Below are positions 24,540-64,000 of a DNA stretch of 64,000 nucleotides, piece after piece. The translations under genes and the position numbers were made by a program. Positions within the stretch are counted from its first letter, which is position 1. The number at the start of each line of letters is the position of its first letter. Under the pieces are notes generated by a model that did not search any database, was not told where the DNA came from, and was given only the letters and a program-made list of their open reading frames with translations. The DNA lies in contig MU400607.1 of assembly GCA_022578965.1 (NCBI GenBank), positions 87,161-151,160 on the forward strand, in the 5' to 3' direction. This DNA comes from Xylaria sp. FL1777. Its lineage: Eukaryota; Ascomycota; Sordariomycetes; Xylariales; Xylariaceae.

Positions 24540-27500
24540 TCACTTGCCCAAAATTCTCTCGCCCCTGAATCTGCTTGCTGGCCAACCCTGCATTGTCTCG
24601 CCCTGCTCGACGACGTCTCCTGCCATGACTAGAGTATTTTCCAAGAGACAGCTATCTTTCTCCATTTTCGCACCACTTAGCAGTCGACTATTAGTTCTGA
24701 GCACACATCTATCGCCCACATGAAGCCGATTCAGATCGAACTTGCCACGGGTATTAATGTGTCCAACTAGACTTGCGTCATCCACAACCACTCTATCACC
24801 CATATCCAGGAGATCTGGCTCCGTGAATAACAAGCTTGGGCGTCCGCTCACAAACAAGGCGCAATCTCGCCCAATCTTTGCGCCCAATGCTCGGAAGTAC
24901 CAGGTCATATATGCTGTGCCCGTAAGCAGCCCAAGAATGCCGTGACCACCAAAGCAGTGTCGCCGGATTCGCTCAATAGCCATAAAGAGTTGCCATCGTT
25001 GGCAATAGCTGCTCTTGTCCCAGTCAAAGTTTCCAGGCTGTCGGCGACCCAGTAGTATCCACTTAGCCGCTATGACAAACCCGATAGCAATGACACTCTG
25101 CACCGCCATGAGAACAGATAGGAGAGCGGAACACAATGAAAACAGAATAAAAGAGTCGTACCAATTACCATTTCCGAGCCACGGCGTATTCTCAAACACT
25201 AGAGCTACAACTTGTATGGAGGAGATCGACGCAGCGGTCCAGTAGGCGTGGGTAACGATGATACTTATAGACGAGTATAAAACGACCATCCACTGGCGCC
25301 AAACGAAGTATGGTGCCTTATGCTGATAAAATGCTCTGCCGAATGGTGATATGGTATCATAAGCTAATTCAGAGCCCAGGATACTAGCCACCACACCATT
25401 ACTAGAGCTATCAGTTGCGACGGCTTCGTTGTCATACTCCTTTTCGGGGCTCCTATCGTGACATATAGATATGGTGACTATGGCATTAGACTTCTGAGTC
25501 TCCCCTGGGAAGAGGAGCTGGTTTGACTTTCCGAAATCTGGGAACTCGGTCACAGTGCTTTTTTCTTCACGTGGGCGAACCCCGAGGAAGACAGAATCGC
25601 CGCCTTTGGAGCCCACGTAGATGCCGCCGGGTTCATATGCCTTGTCTCGTTTAGTAAGACACCCACTACCCAGTGTCGCCTCTGCTCCAACGACGATCCC
25701 GGGAAACGCGACGACACGATCTGCTATCATAGCGCCGTCCTTGATCGTAATGAAATCGGAACCGATACCGTCGACAGTGATAAGATGGCTTCGTGACCCA
25801 AAGACGACGTCGTTTCCGATATCAATCAGTTCATAATCGCCGATACTCGGACCTGTCCCAGGCCAATATACATAACGACCGACCTTGCCACCAAGCAGCC
25901 TAATCGCCATGCTGGTCGCCTCGTAATGCTGACCAAAAAGCTCCGTAAGCTCAGATAGGCTCGAATTCGGCATCAGAGACTTCATAAGTGCCATCCTCCA
26001 CCGGTCAACGTTACCTCTCTCTTGTATTGCAGTCGGGCGCAGTGGGCCAAATATGACAGCAAGAAGATTCCTAACAATGACCACGAAAATAAAAACGAAA
26101 ATCGGACCGAAAAACATGCGTAGAGATCGAGCAAGGTAATACCATCCCACTCTTTCTCCTTCGGTGAACCAGTGAATGACTCTGATTAACATGCTGCGCA
26201 TATGCTGGGCTTCGCTTTGGACAAGCCCGATGAGGCCCAGCAGCCAAGGGATGTTGTAGAGAAATATAAGAGCGATACGAAGAGGGAAAGTTAAGAACAG
26301 CAAGAGGGCCCAATGTGACTTTGGGGCTTTCGTAGCAGACAGGTCACGGTTTGCTTCGCTAGTATCTTGGAGCTCCCAGGAAGATGACCTGGCGCCAACG
26401 CATGCAGAAGCTGGGACAATCGCCCCAGGAGCGATGACGGAGCCCACTCCTACTGATGCGTCCTTTCCGATAGTGATCTTCCCAAGATACATGGTAGTGT
26501 TTCTCTCGCCAGTCATTGGGCGTACAGTGCACTCATCAAGAGTCTATTGATACTATGGTTTAGTGGTTACCCTGCAAGAATAATAGGAGGTCTCAGGGGT
26601 TCGGTGTATTAATAAGCAACAGAAAAATACGGAATATTGCTATGAAAGGAGAGCCCAATAAAAAAGAATGTATTTGGAAAGTTACTTACAACATTATCAC
26701 CAATTTCGAGAAGATCCCACTCACCTAGCCGCGCATTTTTGATCGTAACACCAGACCCGATCTTAGCGCCCAGGAGTCGGTAATACCATATAGTCGACAT
26801 TTCCGTCCAGCCAAATATCCCCTTCCCAGAGATCATGACGATCTTCTGAGTCATCCACCATCGAGTATGGTATGGCCCCCACATAGGATATAATCCCTCC
26901 TTGAAGCGGCCGATGATGAGCCATTTTGCTATAATTCCGACCCAGGGAATGACAACGCTGGAGGCTAGCCGAGCGAAGATGGTACTCACTGCCACATTAA
27001 CAAGCCTACCTATGATGGTCTCGCTAGTGCGGAAACCCAGTAAGTAGATCAAGGAGTATATGAAGAGCGTCCATGAGAGGGCTCGTCGAAGCGGGTAGAT
27101 GAGCATTATAGGAGTAAGTTGAAGCAGGAGGAGGTAAGGGTTCGTAGAACTATACATCTTCTGAGCCTCAAACTGAGGTTTGTCTTCATCTCGAGGGCCG
27201 CTTGCTTCTCGATTCGAAAGCTCCTCGTCGATGTACTCACACAGTTGGCGAACTGATCCATGCTTAAAAATAAATTCGATCGGAACTCTGACTCCAAATT
27301 CAACGCGAATGGCAGATAAGAGTTTCCCAGCTTTTAGAGAATCACCACCGAGTTCGAAGAAATCCTTGTGAGGAAATACATCCTTGATACGAAGTTGAAG
27401 TAGTTCCGCGAACACGCGGGTGAGCTTCAAAGCTGTCGTATCGGCAAGAGTTGTTGTTTCCGAGAGTTGTGTCTCCTTAACCATTTTAGCGAGGGAAGCT

Positions 27501-29605
27501 TGGTCGAGATCCCCCTGGGTATTGCGTGGGAAAGGCTTCGGAATAGTAATGATTGAGTGGGGAACTAAATACCCATCTATCATTTCGAATAGTTTGCTGA
27601 TTAGGGATTCTCCATCCTCCTCATCGGGTATCTCGCCGCTGTTGGCCTTAGGCGCCAAACAGGCTGTCAGAAGTCCTGTTTCCAATAGCACTTCAATATT
27701 TATCTCAAAGTCTAGTGGAAGAAGATGTCGGATTTGACTATGGGCCGTATGCGGCGCTATGAGACATGGTGTCGATGGAATAGGAACAGATATGTCGGTC
27801 TCCGCCGGAGGACATTGTGCTAAAAGATGTCTTTTGGAGAATGGCGTATAGTCGTCTATACATGGTATATCCAGTCGCTCATCAAGCTTTATTCGGAGGA
27901 CCTTGTTGTTTCGCTTCGGCACGTCGTCCATGTAAACGATCACCACCGGCCATTTGGCCTGCTGCAGTGATGACCTCAAGGATTTATGCAGGCACCGAAG
28001 ATCAACCCTTGGCTTCCCAGGTGGTGTTACGAGGACGACCCCAACCGCCTCTTGGAGTGTTTCATGACGGACGGAGAAGGCTAATGCTTGGGAAATTCTT
28101 TGAAATGTTGGCGAGTCTTGTTGTGCCGCTGCCGTAATAATCGCGTTCTCCACTTCAAACGGTGAGATTATCTCACCGCCTCGATTGATGACTTCCTTAT
28201 TTCGCCCAGTGATGTAGAGATATCCGTCTTTATCCAGGTATCCCGTGTCACCAGTGTCGAACCATCCTTCAGAATTGAATGATGACTTATCAAGTGAACC
28301 ATCAGCTCGAAGATAACCTTGAAATAGGGGGCCACCACGAAGACAAATCCGACCGGGTTCGAAAGAGGGTACTTCATTATCCGTGGTATCCATTATTAAT
28401 AGTTCAGGGCCTGTGACTATCCCGGAAGTTCCTGGGCGGTCTAAAGAATATGATAGAGACGGAGTACTAATTGGCATACACTCCGTCATACCATAGCTTG
28501 GGAGCACAACACATTGAAAGGTGTCTCTTATCTGTTCCGCCAGAGCCGGAAGAAGACCTCCTGCTGCGTTACAAACGAGACGGATTTGACTGCGGAATTA
28601 GAGGTTAGGAAACTTTCTTATTGGTTATATGTAAGGAAATAGGTGGAGTATAAAAAGCTCCTTGGTGTCGCTCTAAACCGGAGCCCTGCAAAGGATCAGA
28701 GTAAAGAGAAATTGCCACAATACTCACGATTTTTCCAAAGCATCGACTCTGTTACTTCTTTCACCCAGTATCATCGAGTGCATGGTAGGTGATGCATAGT
28801 ACCAGGTAGGTTGAACATCTTCAAGCTGGTCCCAAAACAGGTTTGGGTCAAAGTTTGGGCAGCAAATAGTTGAGCCTCCTGAAAACAAAGGGGCGAAAAG
28901 ATTTCGAATTATGCCGCCACTGACACTTCATCAGTTCTCAGGTTCAACTAGTCGAGGGTACACTTACACATGATATAACGGCATCATGTTTAGACAGATG
29001 TCGTTCTTTGTCAAACCCCATGAATCGATGACAATTCTAACACCATTGAGGATTGTCCCAACGGTGATCGGAACCAACTTTCTATTACCACTTGTTCCAC
29101 TGGTGAAAAGAATCATTGCAATGTCTTCTGGTCGATTAGGGGTTGGACATTCTGAGATTGGGGTAGGTTTAGAATTTTTGACTTCAACCCGGATTTCCGG
29201 CTCATTGGTCTCATCGACAAGAAAGATATCAAGACCGTTGCGGTCAAGTTGTAGCGTAGATACGTCCGGGACACAACTTATGATGGCACTAGCCCTAGAC
29301 AGCTCAATATCAGCTTTCACTTGATCTGGGCCTGCGCCTGGGTTGATAGGCGCAGCAATATATGAATTGGATACAGCAACGATGGTAGCCGCGAGGAGTG
29401 GTCCGTTAGGGAGGATGATTGCAATAACTGGTTTTCTAAGAAACCCATTATTTGCTGTAGACACATCGAAGCGTCTTACGAAGTTGTGAAGCTCTCGGTG
29501 AGTGATTGGATGCTTGAGACTGGAATATCTGAGAGCTGGTTTGGAGTTCAACTGGAGACAGTCCAGTAGACACGCCGGTTGCAGACTGCTGAATCGTCCT
29601 GACAT
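24540..29605 (-). CDS. NRPS-like synthetase: adenylation, carrier, then three membrane/beta-helix blocks (poly-lysine-synthetase type)
   Basis: Spliced as complement(join(24540..26543, 26690..28589, 28728..28919, 28968..29605)), 1,577 aa; introns of 146, 138 and 48 bp are GT-AG and frame-consistent. Residues 1-515 are an AMP-binding adenylation domain: core A3 motif FTSGTSGNRK near 167-176, YGMTE, GWFDTGDTGY, and the catalytic-lysine tail RNNKVLRIKL. A second AMP-ligase-tail-like segment (IPKPFPRNTQGDLDQ, near 625) precedes the carrier domain, whose phosphopantetheine serine lies in FFELGGDSLKAG (Ser693). The rest holds three blocks, each a pair of membrane helices followed by a left-handed beta-helix (hexapeptide) domain, e.g. 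YYRLLGAKIG and WYFRALGAKIG. This A-T-(TM2-C)x3 plan is that of epsilon-poly-L-lysine synthetase (Pls) and the NRPS-terminal-domain family. The amino-acid substrate is not predictable here. The start is the first ATG; upstream in-frame codons lack one. Confidence 0.9.
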
Positions 29606-34706: not shown

Positions 34707-35930
34707 CTAAGAAGCCCACCCAATTCGAAAAAGCCGATACTCGCTCTCATCACCGCGTCCGATCCCGCTCGGCCGCGCAAAACGTTCCTCGTCGAGTATT
34801 GTAAGTACGCAGCCCCCGGGGTTTCGGATTCCATCACGACCGTTGAATGACGCGTGTACCGTCCCGCTAATGCCCTCAAATTTGCCCGTCGTCCGTACCG
34901 TCAGCATTAACCAGAAGACGCCATTTGGCTTCAACATGCGCGCAGCGCAGTCTCGCAGCCAGACTGCATGTTCCGGACTGTAGATCACATCCGTCGCAAC
35001 GAGGACGTCGGCTTGTTCATTCAAAGGCGAAGAGAGGTCGGGAGTCTCCCAGTCAAGAGGTGCAGCCTTAATTGACGGCGACACTGAGTCACTGTCTTGA
35101 CTTATAGGTTGGAAATTCTTGGTGATGTTCGCTTCTAGATTCTCGAGGACTATTGGATGGAAGTCGGTCGCAATTATTGTTGGCGTCGATACACCTAAGT
35201 GTGGTAAAATCTTGCCTAAGGCAATGCCGACAAGCCCCGTACCAGCCCCTAGCTCGATGATGCGCGGTACAGAACCGAGTGTACGTCTGGAAAATTTAAA
35301 CCGCGCGGGAGATGCACACATCAGCTCTGTGAAAATAAAAGCGGCGCCCCAACTTTGCAGTCCAACATCAGTATGATCAGTGCTGTCCCTGCCAGCTAGA
35401 CCGTCCGTGAGTTGCACAGTAATAGTCTCGCTCTCGGTACCATCTTCATGCTCTTCGACTTCGCCAGAACCTAGACTCAATGCGAAGTGATAGTCTCTCG
35501 TGATCTTGGTGTCCTCAATAGCCTCTTCCTCGTCTTGACTAAAGAACGAAGCTAGGACACATGATGCCTTGTCAATAGCATGTCGCTGCGAATCTTCGCT
35601 CTCAAAGCATGTCAGCTCCTCTGCGCGGCCCAAGAAACCTGTTAGCCAACGCTCGGCGAAGGCGCGCTCGTAAGGGTCGTTGCGAATCTGGAAACCTTCT
35701 TCGTCTTTGCTGTCGCCTTCATTATTATCAGATGCGTAACCAGAATCGGCCGCCGCGGGTGGATTCTTATGCGCCGAATCTGTCTGAAAAGCCAATGACG
35801 TTGGTAGCGGGCAGTAGAGAGTGTAGAGGTCGCTTAATACGGATAAAATGGAAGCTTCCGGTTGGTCGTCAAGCGAGCGTATAGCAGGCAAGCTGCTCGA
35901 CGGAGGTAGCAGGCGCCTCGCCGGGCTCAT
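34707..35930 (-). CDS. Putative protein-lysine/N-methyltransferase (METTL21/EFM-like, class I SAM-dependent)
   Basis: A single-exon gene for 407 aa. The Rossmann methyltransferase fold is evident: motif I IIELGAGTGLVGIALG at 224-239, the acidic end of strand beta-2 at Asp256 (IIATDF), and a post-II segment with VLVATDVIYSPEH around 295-310. A TrpGly-Ala pattern before motif I (LQSWGAAFIFTELM) is typical of the METTL21/nicotinamide-methyltransferase-like group that methylates lysines on translation factors and chaperones; the substrate here is inference. The N-terminal 180 residues are acidic and poorly structured. The start is the first ATG; in the sequence as it was before the retroelement arrived (35936 joined to 42821), an in-frame TGA precedes it with no other ATG between. 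A retrotransposon begins only 12 bp upstream, so the gene has lost its native promoter proximity, though the frame is intact. Confidence 0.85.
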   Translation of the reverse strand: MSPARRLLPPSSSLPAIRSLDDQPEASILSVLSDLYTLYCPLPTSLAFQTDSAHKNPPAAADSGYASDNNEGDSKDEEGFQIRNDPYERAFAERWLTGFLGRAEELTCFESEDSQRHAIDKASCVLASFFSQDEEEAIEDTKITRDYHFALSLGSGEVEEHEDGTESETITVQLTDGLAGRDSTDHTDVGLQSWGAAFIFTELMCASPARFKFSRRTLGSVPRIIELGAGTGLVGIALGKILPHLGVSTPTIIATDFHPIVLENLEANITKNFQPISQDSDSVSPSIKAAPLDWETPDLSSPLNEQADVLVATDVIYSPEHAVWLRDCAARMLKPNGVFWLMLTVRTTGKFEGISGTVHASFNGRDGIRNPGGCVLTILDEERFARPSGIGRGDESEYRLFRIGWAS

Positions 35931-35936
35931 TTGAAA

Positions 35937-35941
35937 CTGTC
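35937..35941. repeat. Target-site duplication, left copy (CTGTC)
   Basis: CTGTC precedes the left LTR and is repeated exactly after the right LTR (42816-42820). The 5-bp length is normal for LTR retrotransposon integration. Confidence 0.95.
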
Positions 35942-36231
35942 TGTCAGACGGACATTGACCTACAACCGGTCTCGGGCCAGCACCACCCGAACTAGCGCGT
36001 ATGAAGTCAGACTATTGGTTAATGATAGTTACTTGTGATATAGTTGCATATGCAGCAACCTAACAGCTAAGGAAGTCCTAGATTATATAGCGGCCCAATG
36101 AGCATAAATAGGCTAGAATATTCTTACGTACGAAAAACAAAAAAAACTATAGCTTTAAAACCCCTAGAAAATTATTAATTAAATAGTAAATATAACTAAG
36201 TTTTAAGCTTTTTACTAAAGCTCTTGTTATA
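35942..36231 (+). repeat. Left (5') LTR, 290 bp
   Basis: Aligns without gaps to 42526-42815. Its outer two thirds are close to the original sequence; its inner third (after about 36130) is heavily C-to-T/G-to-A mutated. Confidence 0.95.
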
Positions 36232-39200
36232 AATAATTTTTTACTTTTTAAAAATACTACTTATTTATAATAAACTTAAGCTATATATTTATTTTTATAC
36301 TTAGCTATATATGCATTTTTTTTTATTTATTAGCTATATAATTAGCTTAAGTTAATAAGCTTGCTTAGCTTTTAGTAGGAATTCTTACTATTTAGCTTTA
36401 AAACAAGGACTTAAAAAAGGAAAACTTTAATAAAGAAAATTTAAAAAAGTTAAGCAACAAAAAAAAAAGCAAACTTAGTACTTTATAAAAAAAACTAAAA
36501 AACGCTAATTATAATTTTAAGCTTACTGCAGAAAAACCTAATAAGCTATACTTCTTTGCATAATTATACGATTTTCTAGCTACTTTAAAACTTACGCATA
36601 ACAAACAATCGCTTAGTTTTTTTAAAGATTTTTCTTTTATTAAACAAATATTTAACTTTATTAATTTTTTTGCATAAAAAGCAAAAAGAGCTAAAAAAAA
36701 AACATAAAATAATATAACTAAGTTAACTATTTAAAAAAAAAAAGTAAACCTTAATAATATTTTTATATTTTATAACCTTTTTATGTTTAATAACATAAAT
36801 AATAAAGACTTTATAATGTTAAACATTATAATTGCAAACTTACTTAAATAGCTAATAAAAATCTATAAGCAAATATAACTTGCTTATAATAATATATAAG
36901 CTTTTATAAAATATATAAAATCTATAAACTAAGCATAATATTATAAGCTATTTATAATATATAAAGCAATTTAAACTATATATAATTTTGTTGTAAGACT
37001 TTTTTAAACTTAAACTAAAATAATATAAAACTAAATTAAGAAGTTTTAGCAAAAAATAATCTAAAGAAATATTACTTTCTTTAAAAAAGTATAAAGAACT
37101 ATTGCTTAACTAGCTACTAATGCTTAAGCAAAAAAACAAGCTATTATTTAATTAGAAAAAATAGCTAACTATTATTATTATATTTTTAGTGTTTTCTAAA
37201 AAAAAATAGCTAAACAAAAACAAGCTTGCTAAAAAAACTAAAGAATAATTAATAGCTAAGCAGCTATAAAAAACAAACAAATTAATTAATTATTTAACTA
37301 TTTTTATGCTAACTTATTTTAACTAAAAAAGCTTTGTATATATATATAAGCTGCTTTTATTAAATTTTATAACTAGCTAAACAACTATTAATAGCTAAAC
37401 GTAAATTTAATTATAAAAAAGCTTTAATTATAAAGTATTATTACTAGCTTTATAAGCTAACCTTTTATAAAACAATTAACTTTTAAAAAAAAGCTTTAAA
37501 AATAAATTATAAACAAAGCATTATAAGCTACTTAAGCTTGCTTTATTATTAAAGCTTTAAAAGCTTAATACATAGCTACTTATATTACACTTAAAGTTAT
37601 TACAGAACTAGCTTTTAATAAAAATCCTAGGTTTATTGCAAGGTTTGCTTTAAAAAAAAACCTTAATAATTCTAATAAAAATAATAACCCTTTTGCAAAA
37701 GAACTACTTTGCAGTTTTTTTAAAAAACTGCTTAAAGGCCTACAAAAGCTAACTAAAAAAAATAGCAATTCAAACAACAGATTACCTTTTAAAACACATA
37801 ATTGCTTTACAAAAGCTATTTTAAAAGCAATTAATAATTTTACGCTTAGCATAACTACTTTTAATTCTATTTAACTAAACAAGCTATAAACTTATAATAG
37901 CAAAAACCCTGCTAAATTTTTACTGTAGTAGCAAAAAGTACAAAACTATATAAAAACATACATAAAAAGCTTTTTTTTAAATAAGCACTAAATTAATTAA
38001 ATTAGTTTTTTTTTAACAAATAAAGCTTTGCTATAACACTAGTTATACTAAAAGCAAGTTTATTAAATTAGCATTACTAATAATTAAACAGCTTATTAAA
38101 TAACTATAAAAGCCTGCTTTAAAAACTTATTAGCTATTTTTTAATTAACAAATAAACTAATAAAAGTAACATATAAAAGCAATATAGCTTAGTTTTTTAC
38201 TAAAGTTTTTAACCTTAATAACTTTATAAAATAATTTAAACTTATATTTTAAACCTTTATTATAAAATGCTTACTAAAAGAATTAACTAAAATAATATAT
38301 TATATATATAAAATAATATTATAAAACAATAGTAACTTTTTAAATGCTATTTAAAAAGCTAGCATAACTTATAAAAATATGTTAGCATACTTAAGTTTTT
38401 TTTTAAAAAGCAAGCCTAGTTTAAAAAAAAAGCTTTTAAAACTAAGCTAAACTAACTATAGCAAAAAAAATTACTTTTGCTTAAGCTAAAATTTATTCTT
38501 AAAAAGCAAGTTAAGCAATAATAAAAAATCTAACAAATTTACTAAAGTAACATTAAATCTAAAAAACAAAAAGTAAGCTAATACTATTATAGCTTTTAAA
38601 AAAATAAACTAAGCTATAATTAACTAACAAAAAAAAAATAAAGTTAACTATTAATAATACAATTAAAACAATTATTATATTTTAGCTTACTATGTAAAAA
38701 AAAATATTGCTAAAAAGGAACTATTTTTAGCTTTTAAAAGAACTTTTGCTACTAAACAAAAAACTACTAAAAAAAAGCCTGCTTTAAGCATAACTAAAAA
38801 AGCTAAAATTAATACAATTATAATAAACGCGCTTATATTTTAGTTTGTAAAACTAAGTAATTCTAATTTAAATTTTTAATAAGCTTTTATAAAGCACTAC
38901 ATAAAAATAATTAGCTTATAAAAGGTAATTCTGCTTATGTATGCAATTTAAAACATAGCAAAAACTAGCTAAATAATTTAGCTAAACAAAAAAATCAAAA
39001 GCTTTAATTAAGTTATTAATTTATTATTTTTATAACTTTTATATATAATAATTAAAAATATTCTATACAAGTATTTTTAAATATAAAAAGTATAATTTTA
39101 GTAATATTAATTAACAAAGCAAAACAATAAAAGCTACTTTTTATTAAGTAGTTATAGCTTTAACTTATAATTACATTTAATATATTATATATACAAAAAG

Positions 39201-39979
39201 CAAAAAAATATTATATAAAAAAAATAGTTCTTTATTACTAAAAAAACTACTTTATTTGCTTTAGCTTTAAACTTAGCAAACTTAATAGCAATTATAATAT
39301 ATTATTTTTTTAGTAGTAACTAAAACAACACTTTTTTGCTTGCTTTTTTAAAAAAACAAACAAAATTACTTTCTTTTTTAAGTGCTACTAAAAATATTAT
39401 ACAAATTAAGCTTTGCTTAACTTAAAAACAGCTAAAATTATAGCAATTTTATTAAATAAAGCAGTAAAAAATGCATTAAACTAAGTTCTAAAAAAATTCA
39501 AGAAATTCTTATTAATTATAGCAAAAGCAGCAATACAAAAGCTACTAAACTACTAATTATAAAATTATGCAATTAATATAATTAAAAGTAAAACAGCCTT
39601 TTAAAAACTTTTTTATGCTATAAGCAATTAAAAGCTTAATATTTTAAAACTATAGCTAAAAAACATACTAAAAATATAACGTATTAAAAAATCTACTTTA
39701 TTATATAGCGCTTTTTTTATGTTTATAAAAAAAAAAGACTTCAATAATCTTTTTAAACTAGTTATAAATTATTAAAAACTTAACGCAGTTATAATACTTA
39801 TTTAATACTTTATTTTTTTAATTTTAAAATTGTAAGCTTGTTTTAAAACAGCTAAATAGTTCTTAAAAATAAACTTTAAGTTAAAATTCTATTTTATAAA
39901 AATTAAAAAAAAACACAAATAAAAAACAGCTTTTTGCTATAAATATAAACTATTTAAATATATAGTTATACTAATAAAA

Positions 39980-41510
39980 CTAATTAATGTTTTTGCAACT
40001 TTTTAATTAATAATAAACTATATTTTCTATAATTTTATTAATGCTAAATTACTAATATACCTTAATGATTTTTTTATATACGTTAATACTTAAAAAAAAC
40101 ACAACTAATTAGTTAAAAAAATATTATAACAATTTACTAAGCATAACTTAGCTATTATACTACAAAAATATAAATAGCAAGTATAAAAAGTTAAGTTTTT
40201 AAGCTATGTTATAAGCTTAAAAAATATTTTTATAACATAAAACAAAGTAAACTGCATTATTTAATAAAAACTTTTAAACACTTTAAAAAAATCGCAGTAG
40301 TTTATTAGCTTTACTAATTTTTACCGGAAATTTATTTGAAAGTTTTTTTTAATTATAAAACTACTAATAAATACTAATAAAATAAACTAAAAGCAATAAA
40401 AATAAACAAACGTTATAAATAAAGCTTTTTTTAAACTAAAATATAAATTTATTACTATTTTTATTTTAGTTTATTTTAATTTATTTTAAGTAGCTTACGT
40501 AAAAACTAATGCCTTTAACTTTGCTTTTAGTATAGTATTATTTTAAAAAAACAATAATAAAAAACTATACCTTATAGCCTTTTATTTCTAAAAGCTTATG
40601 CTTACAAAAATAAACTACAAAATATATAATAAAGAACTACTTGCTATAATAAACTTACTTAATTAATAGTAATAATACTTTAAAAGCGCTAAACATTAAA
40701 TTAAAATTTACTTAAACTATTAAAACTTATTATACTTTATAACTGCTAAAATGCTAAATCAATAATAAGCTAAGTAAGCATAACAACTAGCAATATATTA
40801 GTTTATTATTAACTATAAGCTAAAGCAGCTTAATAAAAAAGCAAACATTATGTTATGCCTTTTTTAATACTGCTTTAAGAAAAAAAGAAGTAAAAACCAG
40901 CTTATTAAGTTAGTTTTATAAAATAAGCATTTTTTATATAACAAAAAAACTATATTTAATATAGCAGTATTAGTACTATTTACTTTAAAACAACTTTATA
41001 GCTTCTTTATACTAAACTAGCTGCTAGAATTTGTTAAAAAAATTAAAAAAGCAGCTAAAAATAACCCAAAATATATAATTTAAAAAAAAAAACCCTTTAA
41101 AAACATAAAACTCCAAAACAATCTTTTATATAAAAAAAAACGCCTATAAGTACTTATTACTATTTAACAAAATATAATAAAATCTAAACATAATACAAAG
41201 ATTACAAAATATATAAGCATAAATAAAACATTAAAACTTATTACTTAGAACTTTTAATAGCTAAACATTAAAAAAACTATATGAAAATTTATTTATAAAT
41301 GCTTTAGTTATTAATAAAACAAAGCACTACGCTATATACTTTATAAACTTCTATAACTTATAGAACTACACTATGTTTTATAGCAATTAATTATAATAAA
41401 TTTTATTATAGATTTATTTCTTTTTAATAGCTACAACTTTATATAAATAATAGTAAATCCTTTTATAAAAATAAAACACTTTATCCTGTTAAAAGTTAAT
41501 AAAAAAAAAA
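39980..41510 (+). pseudogene. Remnant of Ty3/Gypsy pol (RT, RNase H, integrase)
   Basis: Reading through stops on the + strand, reverse transcriptase is recognisable by YLNDFFIYV at 40058 (the catalytic YLDD with Asp changed to Asn by a G-to-A mutation), an upstream ATF trace of the ATFQ motif, and a downstream FLSYVIS trace. RNase H is recognisable about 500 bp later by PFISKSL and a TIKT trace of TDHKNL. The shift of frame between the two indicates at least one indel. The integrase trace is weak. The element is non-functional. Confidence 0.75.
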
Positions 41511-42509
41511 CCAAAAATTTAATTAAAATATTTGCAAAATCTTATTAAAAATTATATAATATACCTTTTAATATTATTTTTAATAAAAATTCTAGGTTTA
41601 TAAGCTACTTTTAAAAAGATTTCTTAAAGCTTATTAAAATTAAACTTTAAATAAATATTACATTTTACCTTTAAACTAACAGTTAAACAAAACAACTTAA
41701 CTAAATTTTTAAAATATACTTAAGAACATTTATAAATTATAAAATAACTAATTAAAAAGATCTTTTACTTACTATAAAGTTTATATATAATAACGCTTTA
41801 TTTGCTTTAACTTATGTATTTTTGTTTTATACTAACTATAGTTTTTACTTAGTAGTATATAACTTACCTTTAAGTGCGCTATATAACCTAGCTAGCAATT
41901 TATATGCTTACTAAATAACTAAAGTCTATAAAAAAACTAAGCTATAGCTAAATAAGTCTAAATAACAAATAAAAAAATAAGCAGATAAAAAACAACAAAA
42001 AATACTACTTTATAAACTTAACTAGCTAGTTATATTAAATGCTTATTATATTAAAACTAAAAAACTTGCTAAAAAATTAAACAAAAAAATATTAGAACTT
42101 TTTAAGATTTAAAAAGTAATCTTTTTTACTGCTGTTAAGTTATTATTACTTAAAGGTTAAAAAATTTATAATTTATTTTATGTTTTACTTATTAAGCTTT
42201 ATTGCGCTAGCAATTAAATATTGCTTAACTTTAACTAGGTTTTATAAAAAGCGCTTTTAATTAAAGCAAAAAATTACTAAGTAAAAAAAATTAAAAACTT
42301 TATAAAAACTTAAAAAAATGTTAAATACTTAGTTAAATAAAAAGGTTAACTAGCTAAATAGCACTAGACTTAAAAACTTTTTGATTATATGTTTACTAAT
42401 AGCGCTAAAGCTTTTATATAAAACTTTTATTAATATAACTTTAATAAACTAGCGGATCTTTAAAGTCTAACTAATTAAAAACTTTAATACTGCTTAAAGT
42501 TAAGCTTAC

Positions 42510-42525
42510 AAAAAAAAAAAAATAG
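42510..42525 (+). other. Polypurine tract of the LTR element
   Basis: A run of A ending in TAG directly abuts the right LTR, the expected position of the plus-strand primer. This confirms the rightward orientation. The original tract was probably richer in G. Confidence 0.65.
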
Positions 42526-42815
42526 TATTAAACAAACATTAACTTACAACTAGTTTTAGGCTAGCACTACCCGAACTAGCGCATATAAAGTCAAACTATT
42601 AGTTAATAATAGTTACTTGTAATATAGTTGCATATGCGGCAACCTAACAGCTAAAGAAGTTCTAGATTATATAGCAGCCCAATAAGCATAAATAAGCCAG
42701 AATATTCCTACGTACAAAGGACGGGAAAAACCATGGCCTTAAGACCCCTAGAGAATTATTAGTTGAATAGCAAATATGACTAAGTCCCAAGCCCTCTACT
42801 AGAGCCCTTGTCACA
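42526..42815 (+). repeat. Right (3') LTR, 290 bp
   Basis: Gap-free match to the left LTR. Here the inner part (42526 to about 42715) carries most of the mutations, while the outer 100 bp are nearly intact, the mirror image of the left copy. Confidence 0.95.
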
Positions 42816-42820
42816 CTGTC
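42816..42820. repeat. Target-site duplication, right copy (CTGTC)
   Basis: Exact copy of 35937-35941, directly after the right LTR. Confidence 0.95.
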
Positions 42821-47555: not shown

Positions 47556-50076
47556 TCACATCTCGTCTCCGCTGAAATCATCTAAGAAGACTTGGCGGAG
47601 GAGGTTCTTTTTATTGATCTTGCCCATTGCATTTCTGGGGATATGGTCAACGACCCTTAGAAGCTGGGGGATCTTGTAGTTTGCGAGCCGGCCCTTCAGG
47701 GCTCGGCGCATGTCCATCGGCTTCCAGCCTTCGGGACAGATCGTGCGGTCGAGAATAGCGACGGCGCCGACCTTCTGGCCCCATTTGCCGGATGGCACGG
47801 CCAGCACGGCGGCCTCGAGCACCTCCGGTAACGACAAGAGCTCGCGCTCGACTTCTAGCGCTGATACCTTCTCGCCGCCGGATTTTATGATGTCTGCGCT
47901 TCGCCGTCCTAGGATAAAATACATGGGACCCTTGGCCCAGTCGCCGCTTGTCCCGCTGCCAGCCGGCGCAGGCACATGTTGGCGCACGGCGACGTCTCCT
48001 GTCTTGAACCACGGCCCCTTGCCGTCGTCAGCAGGCACGAATTCTTTAGCGGTGGCTGCGGGGTTGGCCCAGTATTCGCGGAATACGTTTGCGCCCCGTA
48101 GCTGGATCTCTCCCGATCGGTTAACCTCGCCCGGAGGGATGATTTCATTCGTGTCTGTATCGAAAAGGCGAGCCTCAACACCGGGAAGAGGCCATCCTAC
48201 GCTGGCATCTACGCGGTCATTGAATTCTAGACCGCAAGATAAGGCCATGCCAACTTCGGTCATACCATAACGTTCTAGAAGCACATTACCTCGGCTAAGA
48301 TCCTTCCAGGCGCGCTTCACTGGGGTCGGCAGTGCGGCAGAACCCGAAATGGCAACCCGCATATGCTCGGGGCTTATGGCAATGCGGCCGGCCTCGGCAA
48401 TTTCCGGCGGCAGGGCCTTATGTGTAGAAAGGAGACGGGTGTAGACCGTTGGTACGACAGTGAAGAACGTTATTTTCTCCCTGCACATGTTGGCAAGTTT
48501 ATCTTCTAATACTGCATTATTCGTGGTGCCATTTGCATGCGTTGCTCCACTCGGCAGCGGCATCGAGCGAGTAGCTTGTGGACGGACCACCTCATTCAGG
48601 TCTACAGCCAATTGGCTGATTCTTGAGGATTCCTGTGGTGAGAGGGCCACACCAGTCTCAGCGGAGCTATTCGACCGGGACGCTAAACGAACGATACCAT
48701 AGAGCTCCGCGGCAATTTGACTGATTCTACTCGCATCGGCAGGGGATAGTGTAGTGTCTATGCTCACAGGGGTCGTAGCACCGGTGCTGCATGCTTCTGA
48801 GACCGTGCGACTTAGAGTACTGGGCAGAGATATGTAGGGGAGACCTTTTCCGGGGGTGCTCGGAGCACCGTCGGCCACAACATCCGCTTTTGGAGATTCG
48901 AGAAATGGATTTGCAAAGCGCCGCCATACAGTATCCGCATTGAATGGGAAAAGGAACTCAATAACACTTCCCGCAAATAAAGGGGTGATGATGGCATTGA
49001 CCGTGCCGTGAATGTGGTGTAAGGGTAGAATGTGAAGAAGCCTGTCTTGTGGGGTATATTTCCACGCTTCTATCAAGGCGCGGCTTTGTGCTGTGAGGGC
49101 GGTTTCGGGGATCAAAACACCCTTTGGTCGTGCTGTCGTCCCCGAGGTATACAACATCATGCCCGCCCCCCCAGTGTCGGCATCCTCCGTGATGGTTACA
49201 GTATCAAAGATAGTGTTATCTCGACCAAGCCCGGGGTGCTTCGGTAATTCGACCGCCTTGAGGGTCGGCTTGAATTCAGGGTCTGTATTTGGCGAAGGTT
49301 CAGGCCAAGGGGTTTTGAGTACTTCTTTTGCTTTCGAGGCGAACTTGGCCGAGTGAAGTAGCAAGGATGCTTGAGACTGAGTGAGGACGTACTGCAGCTC
49401 GGGTGCAGGAAACGGAGGTGAGAGGGGAAGCGCAATTGCGCGTGAGGCGAGGATAGCGAGAAATGTCACTATTTCGTATAAGTAAGGAATCGAATGTATT
49501 TTATCAGGGTATTCTGGTTTGGATAACTTGCGTACCGACATAGTCGTAGCTATTTTCTATGAGGAAAGCGATACGTTCCCCACGAATATCCGTCCTGCCC
49601 GCCGCAGCGTATATCTGGTCGCGTGCTCGACAGACATCTGGAAGTAGCTCGCCGTATTTGAATGACCGGCCAGAAACACAATGCGCGACAACAGTGGAAT
49701 TGGGATTGTGCCGTGATATGGCATCAAAGATGGGGAAGTTGGGTAAAGTGAGTGCAGAAGCCATTTTGAGGGAGCCGGACGAGGGTGTGGGTTGAGTCGC
49801 AAAAAAGCGGCGAAAGCATGTGGTGATCTCCAAACGTGGTCTGGCTGTATAAGTAGCAAACGCAGCAAACGTAGCAAATGTACAACCCAATGCAGGATCG
49901 ATATTACTACGGCTGATAGTACGACAACAATATGGAATAGCGGCCACGGACGGAGAGTGGAGAAATGAGCATTGGGAGTTGGTTCGGCAGATCGTGGTGT
50001 TTGAGGCAGTCAACAGCGAAGAAGAGCTCGAAATGCAGACAATCGGACGCAATCTTCCCCCGCCAAGCAACCACAT
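47556..50076 (-). CDS. Malonyl-CoA synthetase / ACSF3-like acyl-CoA ligase with a long insertion, 2 exons
   Basis: Spliced as complement(join(47556..49468, 49536..50076)), 817 aa, with a 67-bp GT-AG intron. AMP-ligase motifs are intact: MMLYTSGTTARPKGVL, the ERYGMTEVGMAL motif, WFKTGDVA, GRRSADIIKSGGEKVSALEVE and the catalytic-lysine tail GKINKKNL. The overall pattern matches ACSF3-type malonyl-CoA synthetase, which activates malonate, in mitochondria in several organisms. The N-terminal 104 residues before the internal Met at 49764 are Arg/Ser/Thr-rich and end in CFRRFFATQ, like a mitochondrial presequence; translation from the internal Met would give a form without it. The family is usually about 570-600 aa; the excess is this N-terminus plus an insertion of about 120 residues (48520-48890) containing a duplicated LSP...SRISQ unit. 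Ligase assignment is firm; substrate is inferred. Confidence 0.88.
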
Positions 50077-63555: not shown

Positions 63556-64000
63556 TAGTATTTGTACATAGTTTTTTAGTACTATATTTAAAAAATGTTT
63601 TTTTTTTAATATTTATTTTTTTAAGTATAAACTTAATTTTATATAATAATTATAAAGTTTTAAGCTAATATTTAAAAAGTATAAATAGTTATTTAAATAA
63701 TTTTATAATATTATATTTTAAATAAACTTTTATATAATATATTAATATTTTATTTACTTTTTATTTTATTTTTTGATTTTATTTTTATTTTATATATTTT
63801 AGTATTAATTTAATAAAATAACTAAAAGTAGTAATAAAACTATAAAACTTAGTTTTAAAAATAATAATTTAATTAAATTAATAATTAATAATATTATTAA
63901 AAATGTTTATAAATATATTAATTAATTTATAGTTAATTTATAATTATAATTTAATAAAATTAAAGCTATATTAATAAAAATATAGCAAAAACTAAATATA
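63556..64000. mobile_element. Edge of a second A+T-rich, hypermutated block
   Basis: From about 63556 to the window end the sequence is almost purely A and T, and the few remaining cytosines follow A or G (AAC, ACT, AGC), the same residual pattern as inside the LTR element at 36-42.5 kb. No open frame or terminal repeat is visible because the block runs out of the window, so calling it a decayed transposon is inference. Confidence 0.5.

Follow-up and report, generated by a model that had tools for sequence, protein, structure and literature searches.

The classical description of RIP rests on the base 3' of the mutated cytosine, and a dominance of the 5' base lies outside it. In the passages cited here, RIPCAL sorts changes by their 3' base (PMC2621366), it was the method used by Amselem et al. 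(PMC4352252), and Microbotryum is given as a case of mutation at TpCpG (cited in PMC2621366 and PMC4352252). The cited parts of work on Neurospora describe homology as being integrated over hundreds of base pairs during RIP (Gladyshev and Kleckner, PMC4858203), so that recognition near an edge of homology would be weak, and describe RIP as leaking outward (PMC7296669). The hypermutation that we analysed in Xylaria sp. FL1777 has in common with Neurospora-type RIP the conversion of C:G to T:A on both strands of repeated DNA, a 3' preference for CpA, positive RIP indices and a RID orthologue, and it differs from that system, as described, by a dominant 5' pyrimidine (Y), a near-immunity of GpCpY, a fade of mutation that lies inside the repeat edge and a second RID-type gene. 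To our knowledge, RID activity has never been demonstrated in vitro.

The window, which is the whole stretch of 64,000 nucleotides that was analysed, carries a single LTR retroelement insertion (35942-42815) within gene-dense DNA of about 48% GC (Table 1). The left LTR starts with TGT and the right one finishes with ACA, while stop-to-stop frames in the interior reach 101 amino acids at most and its observed/expected dinucleotide ratios are 0.21 for TpC, 0.53 for CpC, 1.05 for ApC and 4.91 for GpC. Pfam searches with three frames of the element gave nothing usable and no family for the stretch that we take to resemble a Ty3/Gypsy-type integrase end. The assembly, of 58.7 Mb, contains at least 40 matches to the LTR.

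Table 1. Positions of the parts of the window element and of the methyltransferase genes of the assembly
Feature	Position	Strand	Basis
Target-site copy CTGTC, left	35937..35941	.	sequence comparison
Left LTR, 290 bp	35942..36231	+	gap-free alignment with right LTR
Element interior, 17.7% GC	36232..42525	+	composition
Candidate Ty3/Gypsy-type integrase end remnant	41756..41911	+	possible; resemblance, no Pfam family
Right LTR, 290 bp	42526..42815	+	gap-free alignment with left LTR
Target-site copy CTGTC, right	42816..42820	.	identical to left copy
RIDa	contig C17 (L001)		PF00145 match, RID-type methyltransferase
RIDb	contig C14 (L002)		PF00145 match, RID-type methyltransferase
Gene presumed DIM-2-like	contig C98 (L003/L004)		PF00145 match
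Fourth methyltransferase gene	contig C31 (L006)		weaker PF00145 match, 2e-9

Since the two LTRs of one element are identical at integration, the 53 differences that now separate those of the window element over 290 bp arose after integration, in chromosomal DNA. All 53 are transitions, and when they are read as C>T (31 on the minus strand and 22 on the plus strand) the mutated cytosine is preceded by C in 25 cases, T in 23, A in 4 and G in 1, and is followed by A in 19, T in 15, G in 10 and C in 9. Mutation thus reached 48 of 66 YpC sites versus 5 of 65 sites with a 5' purine (RpC; Fisher p 4e-15). These exact counts confirm what a first-pass annotation had estimated by hand, which was gap-free LTRs with roughly 53 differences, all transitions, about 48 of them after T or C, about four after A and one after G. 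Its description of 38401-38520 was also reproduced upon recounting: 13 of the 15 cytosines there are preceded by A or G, the 11 guanines are followed by C (9) or T (2) only, and CpA (4) and TpG (1) persist.

The same bias was found in other insertions of the family. Fourteen LTR pairs were tried and the eight with clean full-LTR alignments were kept. Each of these is flanked by a target site of its own, duplicated exactly in seven pairs and with a single transition between the copies in the eighth. All 478 differences in these pairs are transitions, and 363 of 496 YpC sites versus 115 of 515 RpC sites are mutated (Fisher 3e-61), with the same direction in 8/8 pairs, a contrast that is conservative since sites mutated in both mates go unseen, which hides YpC changes most. 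Chance as a source of the bias was rejected from the Fisher values of the window pair and of the eight pairs. By trinucleotide, the mutated fractions are TCA 53/59, TCG 18/23, TCT 66/106 and TCC 29/48 after T; CCA 58/65, CCG 43/51, CCT 54/84 and CCC 42/60 after C; ACA 47/77, ACG 11/31, ACT 19/118 and ACC 8/64 after A; and GCA 16/41, GCG 9/31, GCT 4/112 and GCC 1/41 after G. Both strands are mutated, and strand runs are not in excess in the 16 LTR copies. GpC changed at 30 of 225 sites, and these changes fall on a few recurring positions. An earlier all-against-all count, restricted to the plus strand and to 17 of 30 loci and now superseded, had given mutated shares of 0.48 after T, 0.48 after C, 0.15 after A and 0.11 after G.

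Two of the pairs left out, C62 and C108, have non-transition differences (13/62 and 24/69, respectively) and A+T-rich flanks, and they show a context bias in the same direction (mutated after T, C, A and G, respectively: 9/19, 15/31, 14/46 and 10/41 in C62; 10/11, 10/14, 14/44 and 11/48 in C108). The other four (L013, L015, L022 and L036) have no true mate, with alignment scores of 75-90 versus 430-565 in the kept pairs, and in these poor alignments the YpC rule is unclear (for example A 12/15, C 1/2, G 9/13 and T 4/6 in L015). One right-LTR region falls outside its contig.

The 3' base also has an effect, in the order A > G > T~C, which is smaller than that of the 5' base, showing that a YpC rule lies on top of a CpA preference. 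Classed by 3' base alone, the eight pairs are mutated at 174/242 CpA, 81/136 CpG, 80/213 CpC and 143/420 CpT sites, CpA being preferred; among YpC sites the fractions are 111/124 (CpA), 61/74 (CpG), 120/190 (CpT) and 71/108 (CpC), and among RpC sites 63/118, 20/62, 23/230 and 9/105, respectively. In a logistic model of the eight pairs, the log-likelihood gain was 148 for the 5' base, 53 for the 3' base and 209 for both, while in a directed count (962 sites, of which 432 were mutated) the -2 and +2 bases gave only about 4.5 units beyond the -1 and +1 bases. The earlier proposal of a YpC rule "instead of CpA" consequently holds for the dominance of the 5' pyrimidine and fails for the replacement of CpA, which ranks first or close to first in mutated share within each 5' class; the independence from the 3' base that it had also claimed is contradicted by the eight pairs.

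The rule extends to a second repeat family, which has at least 40 copies with 91-92% identity and no BLAST similarity to the window element. In 12 of its copies, the mutated share is 0.86 after T, 0.84 after C, 0.49 after A and 0.26 after G, the 30 columns that keep C in all 12 copies consist of 22 GpC, 8 ApC and no YpC, and pair counts gave 5140 transitions and 95 transversions. Forty pieces, each 2.5 kb long, were also drawn from fixed positions on 40 contigs as a sample of the genome. GC content was bimodal, with 80 of 200 half-kilobase windows below 30% GC and 119 above 38%, and this A+T-rich share of two fifths describes the sampled windows, whose fixed, non-random positions give no estimate for the genome. 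In the low-GC windows, C/(C+T) was 0.034, 0.072, 0.233 and 0.511 after T, C, A and G, respectively. These are ratios of an end state and overstate the safety of GpC because adjacent bases mutate too, which makes the pair counts cleaner. Retained cytosines were ordered Y < A < G in 16/16 A+T-rich blocks (at least three low windows), where the standard RIP indices were positive as well (TpA/ApT 1.50 and (CpA+TpG)/(ApC+GpT) 0.62). Both of the A+T-rich blocks that were searched proved to be multi-copy, and lenient BLAST among the A+T-rich blocks returned matches of about 57-60% identity that were mostly composition-driven. A YpC bias as a general property of gene space was rejected, the sampled gene space being flat (0.503 after T, 0.469 after C, 0.466 after A and 0.515 after G). 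The claim of a repeat-directed C>T mutation with a 5'-pyrimidine rule is therefore upheld by other insertions, the second family and the sampled A+T-rich blocks, and neither of the contrary outcomes that the first-pass annotation had named appeared.

Mutation fades toward the outer edges of the repeat. In the window element, the inner half of the left LTR holds 26 of 27 assigned C>T changes and the inner (5') half of the right LTR holds 22 of 26, and in 8/8 pairs each copy shows 0 or 1 visible YpC change within its outermost 80 bp, although these pair counts (about 1% mutated YpC within the outer 80 bp) are too low because sites mutated in both mates are unseen. Column counts in gene-flanked LTRs (28 copies, of which 18 belong to the 290-bp class and 10 to the 328-bp class; four groups summed) gave, by distance from the outer edge, 51/328 mutated YpC sites at 0-39 bp, 52/264 at 40-79, 65/221 at 80-119, 70/216 at 120-159, 139/237 at 160-199, 196/271 at 200-239, 222/255 at 240-279, 160/177 at 280-319 and 24/25 beyond, that is 16% in the outermost 40 bp, some of which may be differences predating the insertions, 16-20% within 80 bp, about 90% past 240 bp and 96% innermost. 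Left LTRs were found through their similarity to a left LTR, which possibly favours an apparent fade, and the right mates taken by position (6 of the 8 pairs) show a fade in mirror image. The last 100 bp have 36-45% GC in 6/6 right LTRs whose flanks are gene-like (L018, L022, L023, L026, L031 and L036), whereas they have 14-25% GC in four copies bordered on either side by A+T-rich DNA (L027, L028, L032 and L034) and an intermediate 30-33% in three further copies bordered in the same way (L019, L020 and L024), indicating that protection mostly tracks the repeat edge and not the LTR sequence. The GC content of the sampled flanks is preserved, and mutation ends before the repeat edge. Altogether, mutation takes place after integration, in separate insertions, in two families, in repeats only, and fades at their edges.

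Six exon matches to PF00145 correspond to four loci in the assembly (Table 1), the one on contig C31 being possibly DNMT5-like. NCBIfam searches with three methyltransferase pieces returned the dcm superfamily only. One RID-type protein of the assembly matches a protein of Xylaria sp. FL1777 with 100% identity across 98% of the query, which points to that strain or a close relative as the host. The translated frames of RIDa and RIDb both keep the PCQ and EQT motifs, the latter being typical of RID. In a 32-row tree, RIDb falls within a clade of Sordariales RID proteins that includes two Neurospora "RIP defective" entries (85/96, moderate), and RIDa belongs to a clade of seven rows, all Xylariales, that is sister to the RIDb/Sordariales clade (84/77, moderate); an earlier 41-row tree likewise kept the two apart. 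Both genes are present in several Xylariaceae, so that having the two is in itself not distinctive for the fungus studied here.

We consider that this hypermutation is RIP with a changed sequence specificity, with a probability of roughly 0.8. Every hallmark of RIP that we tested was found, namely transitions only, repeats only, both strands, a RID/Masc1-type gene and a preference for CpA. Against it count the 5' dominance, which is foreign to the classical description, the inward fade, where Neurospora RIP is described as leaking outward, and the 30 changed GpC sites. According to this model, the fungus would recognise multi-copy DNA, presumably during the sexual cycle, with C>T on both strands probably resulting from the action of a RID-type cytosine methyltransferase. 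The mutating step favours mainly a 5' pyrimidine and, more weakly, a 3' purine, A above all, in the target order YCA > YCG > YCT~YCC~ACA > ACG~GCA~GCG > ACY > GCY, with almost none of the last. Saturated blocks are accordingly depleted in TpC and CpC while retaining GpC. Recognition or mutation declines over roughly the last 150-200 bp before homology ends, so that the outer LTR parts are far less mutated and the sampled flanks retain their GC. The 5' rule may be set by the target recognition of RID itself. The first-pass suggestion of a RID variant is the best supported of its interpretations, two RID-type genes being present, either of which might act and might set the rule.

Other processes could be proposed, and the same data bear on them. 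Heterochromatic methylation by a DIM-2-like or DNMT5-like enzyme favouring YpC, followed by slow deamination of 5-methylcytosine, would find possible enzymes in the DIM-2-like gene (L003/L004) and in the gene with the weaker DNA_methylase match (L006), but the 478 differences include 0 transversions despite about 90% mutated YpC in the inner LTR, which argues for a fast directed process, and the inward fade at the homology edge is unlike outward-spreading chromatin marks, so that we judge this explanation improbable. We give still less credit to an APOBEC/AID-like cytidine deaminase that would edit the element as in retroviral restriction. The context of APOBEC3, which edits cDNA, is TC/CC, as in Xylaria, and the general deaminase family PF00383 has 12 matches in the genome. 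However, a six-frame genome search on unspliced sequence gave no match to APOBEC_N (PF08210) at E <= 1, changes occur on both strands without runs (in the window pair, 31 minus and 22 plus), the two LTRs of a single insertion differ and the changes hence postdate integration, and a 3' purine is preferred. APOBEC-type cDNA editing was rejected, neither the domain gene (in that search) nor strand-biased pre-integration changes having been found, and with it the corresponding suggestion of the first-pass annotation. UV damage, which causes C>T at dipyrimidines and would impose the same 5'-pyrimidine requirement, is hardly credible: gene space is without bias, mutation declines at repeat edges and the preference for a 3' A (ACA 47/77 and GCA 16/41 mutated) would be unaccounted for, and it was ruled out by the restriction to repeats.

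RIP with a changed specificity can be set beside what is described in other fungi. Our literature search, which covered sources other than the main subscription papers, found no published statement of a 5'-pyrimidine rule for RIP. In Magnaporthe, there is a 5' preference for A or T. Scored by 3' base only, the eight Xylaria pairs (CpA 174, CpT 143, CpG 81 and CpC 80 changes) would look similar to Botrytis, Sclerotinia and Magnaporthe, whose signature is CpA plus CpT (Amselem 2015, PMC4352252) and was scored, in the cited passages, without the 5' base, unlike our analysis. Microbotryum, as presented in the passages cited above, shares with Xylaria that a 5' T counts, but it is tied to CpG, whereas Xylaria accepts any 3' base and a 5' C equally to a 5' T. 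Pestalotiopsis fici belongs to the Xylariales. In the passages cited, it is reported as a case of classical CpA RIP using RIPCAL (PMC4320822), and the RIPCAL-style CpA dominance of the eight Xylaria pairs is 174/304 = 0.57.

A rule set mainly by the preceding base is scored as ordinary RIP by the standard indices, which leave the true enzyme specificity hidden. Part of the 5' rule may be general to RIP. More tentatively, and with the odds somewhat against it, a RID-family mutator that reads the 5' base first, perhaps RIDa as the extra Xylariales paralogue, could be at work, with a hidden 5' rule, invisible to CpN-only tools, partly underlying the "CpA plus CpT" signatures seen elsewhere among fungi; if so, the inward fade would report the one-sided homology that is needed, in nature and at base-pair scale. 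The 5' rule offers a handle on what RID reads, and the edge fade a way to gauge, in a natural setting, how much homology is required, for comparison with the Neurospora constructs.

Several other features were observed. An open frame that matches a lysine methyltransferase (Methyltransf_16), 34707-36011 (-), extends to the left LTR, placing the insertion at the start of that gene or immediately before it. Frames on either side of the element, 24540-28597 (-) and 47556-49556 (-), have matches to an AMP-binding domain with a phosphopantetheine site, a hexapeptide repeat and a second AMP-binding enzyme, and are possibly secondary-metabolism genes. At the end of the window, another and still more A+T-rich block (63601-64000, 3-7% GC) sets in abruptly. 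Lastly, mutated GpC recurs in separate insertions (L025, L029, L030 and L033) at LTR positions of about 53-56, 104-105 and 110-114, around CGCG and TGCATATGC.
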